This document shows, one piece after another, positions 3,237 through 15,758 of a stretch of DNA of 64,000 nucleotides. The notes under the pieces were generated by a model. That model did no database searches, was not told the DNA's origin, and worked only from the letters and a program-made list of their open reading frames with translations. The position numbers and the translations under genes were made by a program. The stretch comes from Leptonema illini DSM 21528 (GTDB taxonomy: Bacteria; Spirochaetota; Leptospiria; Leptospirales; Leptonemataceae): contig NZ_JH597773.1 in assembly GCF_000243335.1 (NCBI RefSeq), forward strand, positions 3,280,156 to 3,344,155. Direction: 5' to 3'. Each line of letters opens with the position of its first letter. The stretch's first letter is position 1.

Positions 3237-5242
3237 ATTCGGCAACGCACATAGATCTGGTCGAGGCTTTGCGGTCGGTGGATGCGTTGGAGCCGGGTTG
3301 CCTCTTTATTGCCGGGGATCTACTCAAGATCTGTGACCTTGAAGCCCGTCGGAGTTCCGACCTGAAATATGTCTCTCTGGAAAATTCCGAAGTACGCAAC
3401 CAGTTGAGGGATTTATTGCTGCTCCTGCAACTCTCGCTTTTCGAAGGCAATCTCTGCATCTCATCCCGCCCTGACGACACGCTGGATTTGCTGTCAAGGC
3501 TGGGCGTACCCACCCAGGTCGGAACTCCGACCGCCGAATCCCTTGCCGGCCTCGTCGCCGACCCCGCTCTCGAATCATATTTGCGTCCACTCTTCCACAC
3601 AGGCATGCTCGTCAGAAAAACCGCCGGCAGCGCCTCATATCTCTTTCCGGGGCGTCAATGGCGGGCCATCGATCGCATCCGTTCTTTCGCCCTGCAATCG
3701 GCAACCCAATCCGCCACGTTCACGGACGACCAGCTCCGGCAGTGGTTCCGCGACGTCCTTGCAGAACGCCCGATCATGGGAGGCGAAAAGCCCGTCGCCT
3801 TCACAGCGCAGCAGCGTCTTGCCCTTCTGCTTGGTTTAACCGAGCCTCTCTTTGTTCTGTCCGGAGGTCCTGGAACAGGCAAGACGACGATCATTCTCAA
3901 TCTGCTCCGGCTGATGATCCGGTCGGGCGTGCCGGCAGAGCGCATTCGCATGGCCGCACCGACGGGAAAGGCCGCCGCACGTATGATGGAGTCCATCGGC
4001 GGCGGTCTGCGTTCTATTGAAAAGGCGACCGATGCCGACAGGACTATCGAAACGCTCAAGGCGTCGACATTACACGGGCTTCTCGGCATCCGCCCCGGCA
4101 TAGCACAGCCCGATTATAATTCAGCTAACCCTATCGATGCCGATGTCGTCGTCGTCGATGAGGTGTCGATGGTTGATGCGGTGATGATGTCGTCTCTTCT
4201 CTCGGCCATCGATCCGCGGCAAACGCGTCTGATACTGCTCGGCGACCGCGATCAGCTGCCGTCCGTGGAATCAGGCGCCGTTCTCGCCGACCTGCTTGCC
4301 CTTCTATCTGAGCAGGGAGAGGCGGCATACACCGAAGATGTTCTACAAAAGGCGGCGGATGTAATCGGCCCCGATGAAGCCTGGAATATGGCCCGTCGCA
4401 AACCCTCGGGGCCGAATCGCTACGTTCACCTGACCTATTCTCATCGGTCCGAGAGAGCTGTGCGCGATCTGGCCGCCTGGGTTAACTCCGGAGGCGAAGG
4501 ACCATCTCCGCTGAAACCGGCCGAGGCTGCGACGCTGGAAGCCGGGCATGAAGGCACGTTTCTTTTTTCGCGGCCCGATGGAGCCGGCAGAGCTCATATA
4601 GAGTCGCTCATTCGCATCTGGGGAGCAAGCGTCTTTCCATCCGAGTGGGAGGCTATGCTTACCGAGCTCTCGCGCAAAGACGCTCCGACAGGAAGAACGA
4701 TCACCGATCCGCAGACGATGGAGCTGGTGCGATCGCTATTTCGAATCTTCGATCGCTCTCGTATCCTGACCGTATTGCGTCGCGGTCCTTTCGGAGCGGA
4801 AAGCGTGCAGCGTATGTTTCAGCGCTATATGCTTTCGCGAGGACTTCGCGAGCGACGCGGACTTTTTTCCGGTCTTCCCGTATTGATTCGACGGAACGAT
4901 CCGCTACGAGGACTGGCTAACGGCGATACGGGGCTCATTCTACAATTTCGGTCGCAGCGTTTTCTTGCGGTTTTTGACGGCAGTCCCATGACGGTCTTCT
5001 CGCCCGATGTGCTGCCGCAATGGGAGCCGGCCTATGCGATGACCGTGCATAAGAGTCAGGGGTCCGAATATGGAAGCGTGCTCATTATTCTGCCCGACGA
5101 GCCCGATCATCCGCTCATGAACCGGCAGATTTTATATACGGGCATCACGAGGGCGCGGAAGTCCGCCTTTCTGTACGGGAGTGACGATGCGATCCGTCAT
5201 GCCTCCGGAAAGGCCTTGCGGCGCATAACCGGATTTGATTAG
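3233..5242 (+). CDS. recD: RecD-like exodeoxyribonuclease V alpha subunit
   Basis: A 669-residue superfamily 1B helicase, the 5'-3' motor of RecBCD. Walker A is GGPGTGKTT (near 3865). It is followed by APTGKAAARM, DEVSMVD (near 4155), GDRDQLPSVESG (near 4240), and the C-terminal VHKSQGSEYGSV (near 5045) and YTGITRARK motifs. Length and motif order fit RecD; the N-terminal region is the usual poorly conserved RecB-binding part. Within it, residues 39-44 and about 95-100 are encoded by two inverted copies of a palindromic element that also occurs between genes elsewhere in the window, so part of this N-terminus is probably inserted sequence. The start overlaps recB by 4 bases. A terminator-like hairpin follows the stop. 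Confidence 0.95.
   Translation: MNSATHIDLVEALRSVDALEPGCLFIAGDLLKICDLEARRSSDLKYVSLENSEVRNQLRDLLLLLQLSLFEGNLCISSRPDDTLDLLSRLGVPTQVGTPTAESLAGLVADPALESYLRPLFHTGMLVRKTAGSASYLFPGRQWRAIDRIRSFALQSATQSATFTDDQLRQWFRDVLAERPIMGGEKPVAFTAQQRLALLLGLTEPLFVLSGGPGTGKTTIILNLLRLMIRSGVPAERIRMAAPTGKAAARMMESIGGGLRSIEKATDADRTIETLKASTLHGLLGIRPGIAQPDYNSANPIDADVVVVDEVSMVDAVMMSSLLSAIDPRQTRLILLGDRDQLPSVESGAVLADLLALLSEQGEAAYTEDVLQKAADVIGPDEAWNMARRKPSGPNRYVHLTYSHRSERAVRDLAAWVNSGGEGPSPLKPAEAATLEAGHEGTFLFSRPDGAGRAHIESLIRIWGASVFPSEWEAMLTELSRKDAPTGRTITDPQTMELVRSLFRIFDRSRILTVLRRGPFGAESVQRMFQRYMLSRGLRERRGLFSGLPVLIRRNDPLRGLANGDTGLILQFRSQRFLAVFDGSPMTVFSPDVLPQWEPAYAMTVHKSQGSEYGSVLIILPDEPDHPLMNRQILYTGITRARKSAFLYGSDDAIRHASGKALRRITGFD
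3348..3531. repeat. Inverted pair of a 17-base palindromic element inside recD
   Basis: GTCGGAGTTCCGACCTG at 3348-3364 and its exact reverse complement at 3515-3531 flank about 150 bases of recD coding sequence. Each copy is itself nearly palindromic (GTCGGA/TCCGAC arms around two bases). The reading frame is kept through both copies. The same 17-mer occurs twice as direct repeats in the intergenic region at 15719-15758. This resembles palindromic elements of other bacteria that insert in frame into genes. Confidence 0.85.
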
Positions 5243-11629: not shown

Positions 11630-12196
11630 TCAGAGAAGCGTTTCGCGCAATTGTTCGGCAAGCTCTACGGCGCTCAGACCGACGGGCAGAGCAAGCAGCA
11701 GCCCGTCGCCGTCGTTAAGAAGATAGTAGAAGCCCGTATGGTCGATGCCGTATCCGACGGCGGCGTTCTCAGATTGTTTATACATGACGCCGAAATCTTT
11801 TGCAAGCCTGTCGATCTGATCACGGTCGCCTGTAAAGGCTCGCAGCTTACGTTCATCGAACTGATCACGATAGGCCGAAAGCGTTTCGGGAGTGTCTCGG
11901 GAGGGGTCAAGGCTTATGAAGACGGGAGTTATACGGTTTCCGTCTCGGCCGAGGATTTTCACCGCCTTCGCCAGTTGCGAGAGGGCGGCCGGACACATAT
12001 CGGGACAGTGCGAATAGCCGAAGAATACGACCTTCGGGCGTTCGATGCTTTTCAGAGCGACGGCGGCGCCCGTTTCATCGACAAGCGACGTCATATTCCA
12101 GGAATGAACGGATCTCTGCGGAGCTGTTTCCTTCTTACATGCGGTGAAGGAAAGCATCGCAAGAGATATCAGTATGATTAAACGGCTACGAACCAT
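11630..12196 (-). CDS. SCO1/SenC-family copper chaperone lipoprotein
   Basis: A 188-residue thioredoxin-fold protein. The signal peptide ends in a lipobox (LSFTAC), so it is probably anchored to a membrane. The copper-binding motif is CPDMC near residue 68, and the distal His is in DHTGFYY near 152; these are the three ligands expected for a SCO copper chaperone. The family delivers copper to cytochrome oxidase CuA sites or related copper enzymes. It is the last gene of a four-gene copper operon and its start overlaps the end of the multicopper oxidase gene by 19 bases, so its client is more likely that oxidase or the cupredoxin fusion than a distant enzyme. Confidence 0.93.
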   Translation of the reverse strand: MVRSRLIILISLAMLSFTACKKETAPQRSVHSWNMTSLVDETGAAVALKSIERPKVVFFGYSHCPDMCPAALSQLAKAVKILGRDGNRITPVFISLDPSRDTPETLSAYRDQFDERKLRAFTGDRDQIDRLAKDFGVMYKQSENAAVGYGIDHTGFYYLLNDGDGLLLALPVGLSAVELAEQLRETLL

Positions 12197-13332
12197 CCCA
12201 TTGCTCCTCTTTCTGCCATGTGAATCTGATGCGGATGAAACATATACCTTCCTTTGTAAGGAAGACGGAATTCGAGAATGGCCCTTTCGGTCTGACCGAG
12301 CGTAATGACGTCGGTATGGTCGTCAGGCTGCAGTTTCGTTCCCGATCTGAAAACGTCGAAGGTCTGCGCATGCAGATGAAACGAAGCGACGGGTTCGTAT
12401 TCGAGCATGTTGACGAGATAAACGCGCACAAGCTCGCCGACGTTAACCCTGATCGGGAATCGATCATAAAATCCGGCCAGCCCGTTCCAGGAATAGATGT
12501 CGTTGCGTCCACGGTTCTGAAGATCGTAACCGCTCAGAATCAGAACGACTTCGTGCGCCGGCGGCCGCCCTCCCGGAGGATCGACGATCATCGTTCCGAA
12601 TAACCCCTTCGCCATGTGAAGAGCAAGCGGAGGGACATGACAGTGATACGGATGAACTCCGACAGGACCGGCCTTGATCGTGTAAAGCGTATCGGTGCCT
12701 CCTGGAATGGATTCCCAGCCGTCCTGATTCGGATCATGCGATCCGTGAAAGTGAACGGAATGCGGCTCGTTCGTCAGGTTGCGCAGACGAATGCGCAGCG
12801 TCTCGCCGGCCGTCGCCCGGATAACGGGGCCCGGAACCCTTCCATTGAAGGTCCAGGCGTTGAACGACGTGCCATGCGCTACGTTAACCGGTCGATTTAT
12901 CGTCCGGACTTCGATATCACGAACTCCGGATTTCGCCCGCGAAAACGGCGGCAGGTAGCGGTCTTCCAGTTTTGCGGAGGCTCCATCATTTGAGGTGCCG
13001 GCAAAAAGCCATTCGCCATGTTCTTCTTTAAGAGGGCGCTCAAAACTCGAAAGGTAGTTGCGGTGAAGCCCCGAAGGCGGGTGTACCATGCTGCCGTAGG
13101 CGTTACCCGTGCGGCGCAGAAGCCCGGTTCCGTTACCCATACCGTCATCGCCTAACGCGAATCCCGAACCTGTCGCCGCCGTCGGATCGGTCGGCGCCGG
13201 GCCGAAGCAGAGCGGACCGCTCTGATCGACCGGAGCTCCGCGCAGGCGGGCGATGAGGGCCGGGATGGAGGCGGTGCCGAGCAGACCGACGCCTCCAAGC
13301 CCGAACCATTTAAGAAAGTCCTTCCGGTTCAT
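12178..13332 (-). CDS. Two-domain multicopper oxidase
   Basis: A 384-residue periplasmic copper oxidase. The N-terminus NRKDFLKWFG is a relaxed twin-arginine (RK) signal followed by a hydrophobic segment. Four His-x-His motifs for the type 2/3 trinuclear centre are present: HFHGSH (near 190), YHCH (near 230), FHLH (near 322) and FHPHQIH (near 365). The type 1 site lies only in domain 1: Cys of HCH, then a His eight residues later, then GLFG, where Leu sits at the usual axial position. Domain 2 has no type 1 Cys. This is the pattern of two-domain laccase-like oxidases, not of NirK, which has HCA at that place. The substrate is unknown. It shares one base with the stop of the preceding gene. 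Confidence 0.88.
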   Translation of the reverse strand: MNRKDFLKWFGLGGVGLLGTASIPALIARLRGAPVDQSGPLCFGPAPTDPTAATGSGFALGDDGMGNGTGLLRRTGNAYGSMVHPPSGLHRNYLSSFERPLKEEHGEWLFAGTSNDGASAKLEDRYLPPFSRAKSGVRDIEVRTINRPVNVAHGTSFNAWTFNGRVPGPVIRATAGETLRIRLRNLTNEPHSVHFHGSHDPNQDGWESIPGGTDTLYTIKAGPVGVHPYHCHVPPLALHMAKGLFGTMIVDPPGGRPPAHEVVLILSGYDLQNRGRNDIYSWNGLAGFYDRFPIRVNVGELVRVYLVNMLEYEPVASFHLHAQTFDVFRSGTKLQPDDHTDVITLGQTERAILEFRLPYKGRYMFHPHQIHMAERGAMGWFVAV

Positions 13333-13643
13333 CAGTAACGGGCGATGCTCGCGACGGCGATGAGAAGCACCATGAGGCCGGTACCGCCGAAAACAAGCAC
13401 GTTGCGGACGAAGGCCGGCAGGCTGCTTTTGCCGGCGACGTGATAGGCAAAGGCGCCGACAAACGGCAATCCGATGATGGCCGCCGTCCAGATCGAGCCC
13501 GTACGGGTATCGACGTCGCTGCGACGCGACAGGTCATACAGAGCCAGCGGAGCCCAGATGGCAAGAAGGATGAACGGCACATAGTAGCCGTAGAAGTTGA
13601 TCAGGATGGTGAAAAAACCGGGAGATGCAATCGTTTCGTTCAT
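13332..13643 (-). CDS. Small three-helix membrane protein (PLDc_N-like)
   Basis: A 103-residue integral membrane protein with about three transmembrane helices (near 12-35, 50-70 and 80-100). The centre IWTAAIIGLPFVGAFAYHV matches the C-terminal tail of the upstream fusion protein (LWTALLVLLPFVGSLAYHL), so the two are homologous. The W-x(8)-PFVG-x(3)-Y pattern resembles the PLDc_N membrane domain found at the N-terminus of cardiolipin synthases, but no phospholipase domain is present. The ATG at 13643 was chosen because a GAGGT ribosome site lies just before it and the upstream part of the open frame overlaps the previous gene. Probably a membrane partner of the copper oxidase. Confidence 0.8.
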   Translation of the reverse strand: MNETIASPGFFTILINFYGYYVPFILLAIWAPLALYDLSRRSDVDTRTGSIWTAAIIGLPFVGAFAYHVAGKSSLPAFVRNVLVFGGTGLMVLLIAVASIARY

Positions 13644-13671
13644 AATAATTACCTCGTTACTGTTGTAAATG

Positions 13672-15615
13672 TCAGAGTACCACAAGCACGGCGGCGATAA
13701 GAAAGACGAGGAAGACCCCGGCTCCTGTGGCCAGCATGCTGCGTCGAATATGTGCGGGAATCGTCGATCCGCCGCGCAGATGATAGGCAAGCGATCCGAC
13801 GAAGGGAAGAAGCACAAGAAGCGCCGTCCACAGCGTGCGTCCGTTCGTACAGTCGCGCTGATGCATGTCGACGAAGGCAAGTGAAGTCCAGGCGGCATAC
13901 ACGGTTAACGGCAGCAGGAAGGCAAAGACGTGATACAGCAGACCGAGCACTCCGTAAGGGAGGACGGGCTGAATCGAACCGGCCGTGGCCAGTCGCGAAG
14001 GTCCGTATTCCTTGATATACTGTTCGGTCAAAGGATGATAGTCGGCATTGTCGACGATGCCCTTATTCTGCTCGAAAACGTTAACAGCCGGCTGAAGGCG
14101 ATCTTTGACCGCACCGGGCATCTCGGGTTGGGCGGGCGGCACGGGTTGTGTTTTATAGTCTCCCGTTTTAGCCAGTCCGACCTTCGCTTCGATCATCATG
14201 GCCAGAGCTCCCATCATCATCGACAGATCGCCTCCGCTGATAACGCGGATCGGAGAGTCGCACGAATTCAGAGCAGACAACCCGTACGGAATCTGCGTGC
14301 GGAACTGGTTCCCCTGATAGCAGTTCCCGGTGCTCACCGGACCGACAAGGGCAAGGTCGGCGCGACCCGAATCCAGTACGATGTTGTCTTTAACGGTATT
14401 ATCATACGACAGCCACAGGTTTTCCTGTAGGTTCGGGATGATCAGCACACCGTTATTCGCGTGGCCGAGAATGAGATTCTTTTCGATATCGTTGCGAATG
14501 CCGCCGGCGATCATGATGCCGTTACCGTACGACGGATACGTGAGCGCTTTAGCTGGAGCGTTGCGGTTGTTGTTCGAGACGATGATGTTGCCGATCAGCG
14601 TCGATTCGCGCTCCGGAGGGAGCAGCTCGCTGTCGAGCGTGTTCGGTCCGGCTCCGACCATGTTGTTCTTGAAGATGTTGTTGATCAGATAAAGATCGCC
14701 TCCGGAGTTCGTTCCCGAATAACCCATGGCGTTATTCTCGCCGATGTTGTTATAGAGGATCGCCCGGCACGGATAACACTGGCCGATATAAAAGGATGAA
14801 TCGGGAGAACCCGAAGCATAAGAATGCTCGAAGATCCCATCTACGGAATCGAAGGCATACAGGCCATAGTCGCCGTTATTGTAGGCCGTCAGATACGATC
14901 CGCGGTAGCCTTTCACGCCCGTCCAGAAGAATCCGTTCAGGGTGGCGTTGCGCGCCGTCATGTTTTCGATGACGACTCCGTCCGCTCCGACGACGAGAAT
15001 ACCGTTGCCGCGAACAAACTCGCCGTCGATGATCGTTTCACTGCGGCTAACTCCGCGAAGAATCAAGCCCGGCGTGGTAACGACGACCTCTTCGCGATAC
15101 ACGCCTTTATCGATAAGAATGAGATCGCCCGGCGATGCGGCGTCGACGGCGTTCTGAATGGTCGGATGCTCTTGCGGAACCTTTCGCGTGCGGCCCGACC
15201 ATTTCTCGGGAGCCGGTTCCGCCTTGCCCGTCACCTCGGCCTTATATTCAACGTCGCCGACGACGATTGTGGCGACCATGCCGAGTTTCCCGTCGGGCGT
15301 GGCATGGAACGAACAATAGTAGGGGAAGACGCCGTCAGCCGGATAGGTGACGCGGGTCTTTGCGCCGCCAAGCATCACCAGATCGCCATATGTCGTTTCT
15401 GTCGACCAGCTCTTGTCGACGGCAATCGCATTGTGAGGATTCAAACCTTTATTGAAGAACTCGATCTGTCCGCCTTTATGAATCCTCGAAAGAGGAGGCG
15501 AAAAGAAGTTGTCCATCATGGTTACGTGAGCAAAGCCTCCGCCTTCGCCCGGGGAGCCGCAGCTCGCCAGAAGAAGGAGAAGCGCTGGAATCGCAGTAAG
15601 CGCTGTTTTTCGCAT
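13672..15615 (-). CDS. Cupredoxin / NosD-like beta-helix / membrane-anchor fusion lipoprotein
   Basis: A 647-residue fusion of three parts. A lipoprotein signal ends in LLLASC. Residues about 25-125 form a plastocyanin-like cupredoxin with a complete type 1 copper site: His in NPHN, Cys in YYC, His in SFH and Met in KLGM. Residues about 140-430 form a right-handed parallel beta-helix (NosD/CASH-like), with many NN and GN turns and starting HPTIQNAVDAASPGD. After a linker, three transmembrane helices at the C-terminus are homologous to the next gene. ATG at 15615 was preferred because GGAG lies six bases upstream. It probably passes electrons to or from the multicopper oxidase encoded two genes on. 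I know of no named system with this architecture. Confidence 0.85.
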   Translation of the reverse strand: MRKTALTAIPALLLLLASCGSPGEGGGFAHVTMMDNFFSPPLSRIHKGGQIEFFNKGLNPHNAIAVDKSWSTETTYGDLVMLGGAKTRVTYPADGVFPYYCSFHATPDGKLGMVATIVVGDVEYKAEVTGKAEPAPEKWSGRTRKVPQEHPTIQNAVDAASPGDLILIDKGVYREEVVVTTPGLILRGVSRSETIIDGEFVRGNGILVVGADGVVIENMTARNATLNGFFWTGVKGYRGSYLTAYNNGDYGLYAFDSVDGIFEHSYASGSPDSSFYIGQCYPCRAILYNNIGENNAMGYSGTNSGGDLYLINNIFKNNMVGAGPNTLDSELLPPERESTLIGNIIVSNNNRNAPAKALTYPSYGNGIMIAGGIRNDIEKNLILGHANNGVLIIPNLQENLWLSYDNTVKDNIVLDSGRADLALVGPVSTGNCYQGNQFRTQIPYGLSALNSCDSPIRVISGGDLSMMMGALAMMIEAKVGLAKTGDYKTQPVPPAQPEMPGAVKDRLQPAVNVFEQNKGIVDNADYHPLTEQYIKEYGPSRLATAGSIQPVLPYGVLGLLYHVFAFLLPLTVYAAWTSLAFVDMHQRDCTNGRTLWTALLVLLPFVGSLAYHLRGGSTIPAHIRRSMLATGAGVFLVFLIAAVLVVL

Positions 15616-15718: not shown

Positions 15719-15758
15719 GTCGGAGTTCCGACCTGAAGTCTGTCGGAGTTCCGACCTG
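15719..15758 (+). repeat. Two direct copies of the 17-base palindromic element
   Basis: GTCGGAGTTCCGACCTG occurs at 15719-15735 and again at 15742-15758, a period of 23 bases, in the gap upstream of the divergent copper operon and membrane protein gene. Both copies match the one in recD at 3348-3364 exactly. Confidence 0.9.

Follow-up and report, generated by a model that had tools for sequence, protein, structure and literature searches.

What is the function of a spirochaetal operon that joins a cupredoxin to a beta-helix and sets this fusion beside a multicopper oxidase (MCO)? The question is raised by a 64,000-nucleotide stretch (hereinafter designated the window; G000:C1:3280156-3344155) of the genome of Leptonema illini 3055T (4,522,760 bp, three contigs), an organism described as aerobic that uses long-chain fatty acids for growth. 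Four copper-protein genes, encoding the fusion, a small membrane protein related to its C-terminal tail, an MCO and a SCO protein, lie in this order on the minus strand from 15615 to 11630, and an earlier note had taken them for a dedicated electron-transfer and copper-delivery system of the envelope. The sequence itself establishes which parts are present, that their metal sites are complete and that fusion, tail protein and oxidase are constantly associated. We tentatively propose, at somewhat under an even chance, that the four gene products make up a self-contained unit for copper-based electron transfer, located in the periplasm on the inner membrane, in which the cupredoxin would pass electrons to the MCO and thence to O2 while the SCO protein loads copper.

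Organization of the operon and architecture of the fusion lipoprotein

The genes and domains of the operon are as follows (window coordinates, strand, description, basis).

13672-15615, minus: fusion lipoprotein, 647 amino acids (open reading frame (ORF), Shine-Dalgarno (SD)-like site, Pfam, NCBIfam, full-length relatives 48-65% identical)
15235-15534, minus: plastocyanin-type cupredoxin of the fusion, residues ~28-127 (PF00127, PDB profile, invariant ligands)
14251-15189, minus: right-handed parallel beta-helix of the fusion, TIGR03805-like, residues ~143-455 (PF13229, TIGR03805, free-standing relatives)
13981-14235, minus: linker with Met-rich stretch GGDLSMMMGALAMM, residues ~461-545 (alignments)
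13675-13968, minus: C-terminal three-helix membrane tail of the fusion, residues 550-647 (hydropathy, homology to the next gene)
13332-13643, minus: membrane protein, 103 amino acids, homologue of the fusion tail with motif NFYGYYVPFILLA-W-P (SD-like GAGGT and ATG at 13643)
12178-13332, minus: two-domain MCO, 384 amino acids, type C by ligand placement (PF07732, PF07731, 3gdc, invariant ligand columns)
11630-12196, minus: SCO1/SenC lipoprotein, 188 amino acids, with C-x3-C (CPDMC, 64-68) and DH (from 152) (PF02630, motifs)

The four genes are real at these coordinates and tightly spaced, the MCO and SCO genes with overlapping ends as the earlier note had described: 28 nt separate the fusion stop codon from the ATG of the tail gene, the tail gene and the MCO gene have 1 nt in common (TGATG), and the SCO gene starts inside the MCO gene with an overlap of 19 nt. 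The fusion start at 15615 is backed by an ATG with the upstream sequence ATGGAGAAACAT, which yields a lipobox (LLAS-C19). The fusion and the SCO protein are both predicted lipoproteins, a point absent from the first description of the locus.

Following the lipobox, the fusion comprises a cupredoxin, a beta-helix, a linker with the Met-rich stretch and a three-helix membrane tail; Pfam and profile matches together with hydropathy bear out the proposal that all of these reside in one protein. The cupredoxin scores 21.9 bits against PF00127, barely above the cut-off of 21.2, and counts as a member of the type 1 cupredoxin family. A six-sequence profile of the domain retrieves plastocyanins, amicyanins and the ‘Blue (Type 1) copper domain protein’ 5fc9 from the PDB (up to 3.7e-9), and a PHROGs search returns a plastocyanin-like match, a weak neck-protein match and nothing else. 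The full His-Cys-His-Met set of a type 1 site is present (H61, C101, H104 and M113) and is invariant in an alignment of eight relatives. The site is shared with plastocyanin, amicyanin and 5fc9, from which the fusion cupredoxin differs in its longer C-x2-H-x8-M ligand loop and in being fused to a helix and a tail.

The beta-helix matches PF13229 (4.9e-11), and its top NCBIfam model is TIGR03805 (E 1.9e-20), with 73 bits against a curated cut-off of 141.5; by sequence it is related to TIGR03805 proteins yet is no member by the curators’ rule. The description of this domain as NosD-like holds in the sense of broad kinship, but TIGR03805 is the better model, and the score of the fusion against the NosD model TIGR04247 is far under the cut-off (36.7 bits versus 300, covering model positions 1-67 only; 32.4 bits in the genome search). 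A QC-YP-C motif in the helix is conserved in Leptospirales and occurs among most members of the fusion alignment. The Met-rich stretch GGDLSMMMGALAMM is likewise found in most members and is not conserved in genome G100 or outside Leptospirales; the absence from G100 led us to reject it as an essential copper site.

The closest relatives found for the helix are TIGR03805 proteins and free-standing proteins of Haladaptatus (43%; L017 5929-7143) and Streptomyces clavuligerus (38%; L018 5776-7218). Unlike the fusion, the free-standing relatives examined have neither a cupredoxin nor a membrane tail, and no MCO was found near the helix gene in the annotated neighbourhood in Haladaptatus or recognized among the neighbouring ORFs in S. 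clavuligerus. The helix subfamily is thereby common to proteins from different domains of life.

The tail of the fusion contains three hydrophobic segments (550-582, 595-613 and 623-647). The next gene encodes a free-standing homologue of this tail, as anticipated in the earlier note, with 37% identity over 87 amino acids (E 6e-13). Both tails match PLDc_N (PF13396) weakly, with 20.8 and 19.6 bits, under the cut-off of 23.3. A longer ORF from 13898 was considered as the tail gene and rejected as a mechanical artefact; the gene spans 13643-13332. The motif NFYGYYVPFILLA-W-P in the first membrane helix of the tail protein is almost invariant, a conservation beyond the apparent need of a plain anchor.

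A two-domain multicopper oxidase and the adjacent SCO protein

The assignment of the third gene to a two-domain MCO is upheld by matches to PF07732 and PF07731 and by the top PDB match, 3gdc, which spans both domains (2.4e-68). Type C two-domain MCOs are defined by placement of the type 1 (T1) copper in the N-terminal domain (PMC13151041). The ligands of the window MCO fit this type, since the T1 ligands are in domain 1 only (H191/C231/H239, with L244 axial) and domain 2 carries HPH without Cys. The trinuclear site is predicted to comprise eight histidines (194, 196, 230, 232, 319, 321, 366 and 368); these and the T1 ligands are invariant in 13 sequences, the T1 axial position being L or M. 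Two cupredoxin domains, T1 in domain 1 only and eight trinuclear histidines are shared with 3gdc, 7rab and their relatives. By contrast, the window MCO has ~130 extra N-terminal amino acids with a conserved YGSMVHPP motif, and its operon carries the cupredoxin/beta-helix fusion where type C relatives have a ZIP-like transporter. The N-terminal sequence RKDFLK is a candidate twin-arginine translocation (Tat) signal in which Lys replaces the second Arg.

We also considered the MCO as a copper nitrite reductase and rejected the assignment: it scores 87 bits against TIGR02376 (cut-off 296) and has eight trinuclear histidines in place of a nitrite-reductase type 2 site.

The last gene qualifies as a SCO1/SenC chaperone, as had been claimed, with 121 bits against PF02630 and both CPDMC and DH present. 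PF02630, CxxxC and the conserved His are common to this family; the window SCO is coupled to an MCO and not to cytochrome oxidase. The genome contains three further SCO genes, one of them adjoining coxB.

The module is conserved within Leptospirales

Of 393 Spirochaetota genomes, nine carry the fusion; these nine, and no others, also carry the tail gene and a close MCO (at least 56% identity). They belong to four genera and two families of Leptospirales. Eight are from the family of the window and represent three genera, with fusions 60-65% identical to the window copy (the G020 copy being split across contigs); the ninth, G100, is from the second family and has a fusion of 48-50% identity. 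Tail proteins (48-61% identical) are present solely in fusion-bearing genomes. All nine have the genes in the order fusion-tail-MCO; G100 has the fusion and the tail gene on two contigs, joined by an exact 149-bp overlap through the end of the former gene and the start of the latter. The gene order is therefore not peculiar to L. illini, a possibility the earlier note had left standing, and its recurrence in nine genomes indicates an association beyond chance, the nine being related to each other and not independent events. From genus to genus the neighbouring genes change; what is conserved is thus a self-contained module and not the region. One further genome (G332) has an MCO of 52% identity beside a ZIP-like gene, with no fusion or tail gene.

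Two narrow peptide patterns, run against 84,980 species genomes, returned Leptospirales only, in a scan that probes other phyla weakly. A search of viral contigs gave no match, and a plasmid search gave relatives of the helix part only, the aligned ones lacking cupredoxin and tail.

A proposed electron path and the case against it

In the electron-transfer unit that we propose, the N-terminal lipid and the three C-terminal helices would hold the fusion at the membrane, with the tail protein as its probable anchor partner. The plastocyanin-type cupredoxin, whose copper site is evident from sequence, would receive electrons from a donor, and the beta-helix may serve as a rigid docking scaffold. 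Electrons would then pass from the cupredoxin to the T1 copper of the MCO, which lies in domain 1, as from azurin or pseudoazurin to copper nitrite reductase, and the eight-histidine trinuclear site, assigned by its ligands, would reduce O2 to water. The SCO lipoprotein would insert copper into the oxidase, the cupredoxin or both.

Several observations favor this electron path. Nitrite reductases have their T1 copper in the N-terminal domain and accept electrons from cupredoxins, and the MCO has its T1 site in the N-terminal domain as well. The exact co-occurrence of the genes, the kept order, the invariant copper ligands and the presence of a SCO gene additional to the one at coxB point the same way. 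The system originally suggested, dedicated to electron transfer and copper delivery in the envelope, fits these features; the division between its two roles is one that we infer.

Other observations weigh against the proposal. No electron donor is encoded near the operon, and the cupredoxin could alternatively be a mere copper storage or delivery domain. The SCO gene is adjacent in seven of the nine genomes; two g10 genomes lack an adjacent copy and have SCO genes elsewhere. Structure prediction gave a mean predicted local distance difference test (pLDDT) score of 36.8 for the fusion and 49.2 for the cupredoxin alone, too poor for use and probably a consequence of shallow alignment depth. Finally, related MCOs are coupled to ZIP-like genes at five other loci, a hint that enzymes of the wider clade act on metal ions.

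Alternative functions

The last of these points leads to metal oxidation or copper defence, in which the MCO would oxidize periplasmic Cu(I) or Fe(II)/Mn(II) and the cupredoxin would bind copper or relay electrons. At the five loci, a ZIP-like transporter gene comes immediately after, or overlaps the end of, the gene for a type C-like MCO 35-40% identical to that of the window:

L019 5935-8626: MCO and ZIP-like genes
L042 4782-7010: MCO and ZIP-like genes
L043 4812-7027: MCO and ZIP-like genes
L045 4713-7054: MCO and ZIP-like genes
L076 6751-8921: MCO and ZIP-like genes

The hosts are Chroococcidiopsis, Rhodococcus, Sutcliffiella, Deinococcus and one spirochaete, and the pair seems to be a bacterial equivalent of the oxidase and transporter that are paired in yeast. 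These are the nearest MCO relatives encountered beyond Leptospirales, and DtxR-type regulators, Rieske proteins or heavy-metal pumps lie near several of them, an arrangement that speaks for metal oxidation. However, within the leptospiral operons we recognized neither a metal pump nor a metalloregulator nor a transporter, and in the MCO tree the fusion-linked enzymes fall neither robustly apart from nor within the ZIP-linked group (support 50/16), so the substrate of the latter cannot be transferred to the former. We regard a metal-oxidizing role as rather improbable. A copper-loading scaffold appears a shade less so, though still unlikely: the fusion would be a NosD-like, membrane-held platform from which the cupredoxin and the SCO protein hand copper to the MCO as the sole end product. 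In keeping with such a platform, the beta-helix is broadly related to NosD and is encoded beside a SCO chaperone and a copper enzyme, and most members conserve the QC-YP-C motif and the Met-rich stretch. The low NosD score, an operon without a NosF/NosY ABC partner, the loss of the Met-rich stretch in G100 and the absence of CxxC in Haladaptatus argue against it, and the full plastocyanin ligand set, axial Met included, favors electron transfer over storage.

NosD-like and SCO-like parts could also indicate an operon for assembly of nitrous-oxide reductase or cytochrome oxidase, which we consider very improbable. NosD (TIGR04247) and the fusion have in common a right-handed beta-helix in the envelope and a copper context, but the fusion has a cupredoxin and a membrane tail in addition, and its operon is without NosFY. 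L. illini has its own nos cluster (G000:C1 ~2563009-2566093; L083), encoding NosZ, a NosL-like lipoprotein and a true NosD that scores 400 bits with TIGR04247, versus 32 for the fusion. With nosZ at C1:2565884, ~0.73 Mb away, the operon is not beside nosZ, nosF or nosY. Moreover, nosZ and the module occur independently of each other: five genomes carry nosZ and lack the module (G005, G007, G010, G014 and G021), and nosZ was not found in three module genomes (G016, G017 and G018), which are drafts in which single absences are soft. Assembly of nitrous-oxide reductase was rejected on these grounds, and the link to nitrite or nitrous oxide drawn in the earlier note finds no support, the eight trinuclear histidines not being a nitrite-reductase type 2 site. 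Assembly of cytochrome oxidase is probably not the role either, because another SCO gene adjoins coxB. The nos cluster is present although L. illini is described as aerobic.

A repeated palindrome near the operon

The perfect palindrome GTCGGAACTCCGAC occurs twice upstream of the operon (window 15719-15732 and 15742-15755) and twice more near 3.4 kb (window 3348-3361 and 3518-3531). Genome-wide, 39 places are listed for it versus 0 for the reversed control, with a strong cluster at 3.1-3.43 Mb. Most of the 39 are far from the operon, and the double palindrome was rejected as an operon-specific operator.

Possible implications for leptospiral respiration

Each part of the operon is in or near a known family. 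Their combination did not appear in the open-licence literature searched, which yielded no matching named pathway, as the earlier note had supposed, and no characterized system with the same genes; a paper in a subscription journal could have escaped this search. To our knowledge, little is known about the native electron donors of type C two-domain MCOs or about their part in physiology, and the roles of many NosD-related bacterial beta-helix proteins are unclear. The fusion and the gene order lock a cupredoxin, a beta-helix and a type C MCO together, making the question of the donor directly testable with purified proteins.

More speculatively, and with a low degree of confidence, the module may represent a hitherto undescribed periplasmic O2-reducing branch in leptospiral spirochaetes, in which a membrane-tethered cupredoxin on a beta-helix mast, together with a small membrane partner dedicated to it, would feed a type C MCO equipped with its own SCO protein. 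If so, it would be a terminal oxidase or an O2/redox-protection module made of copper proteins only, and leptospiral respiration would gain a redox module based on copper.

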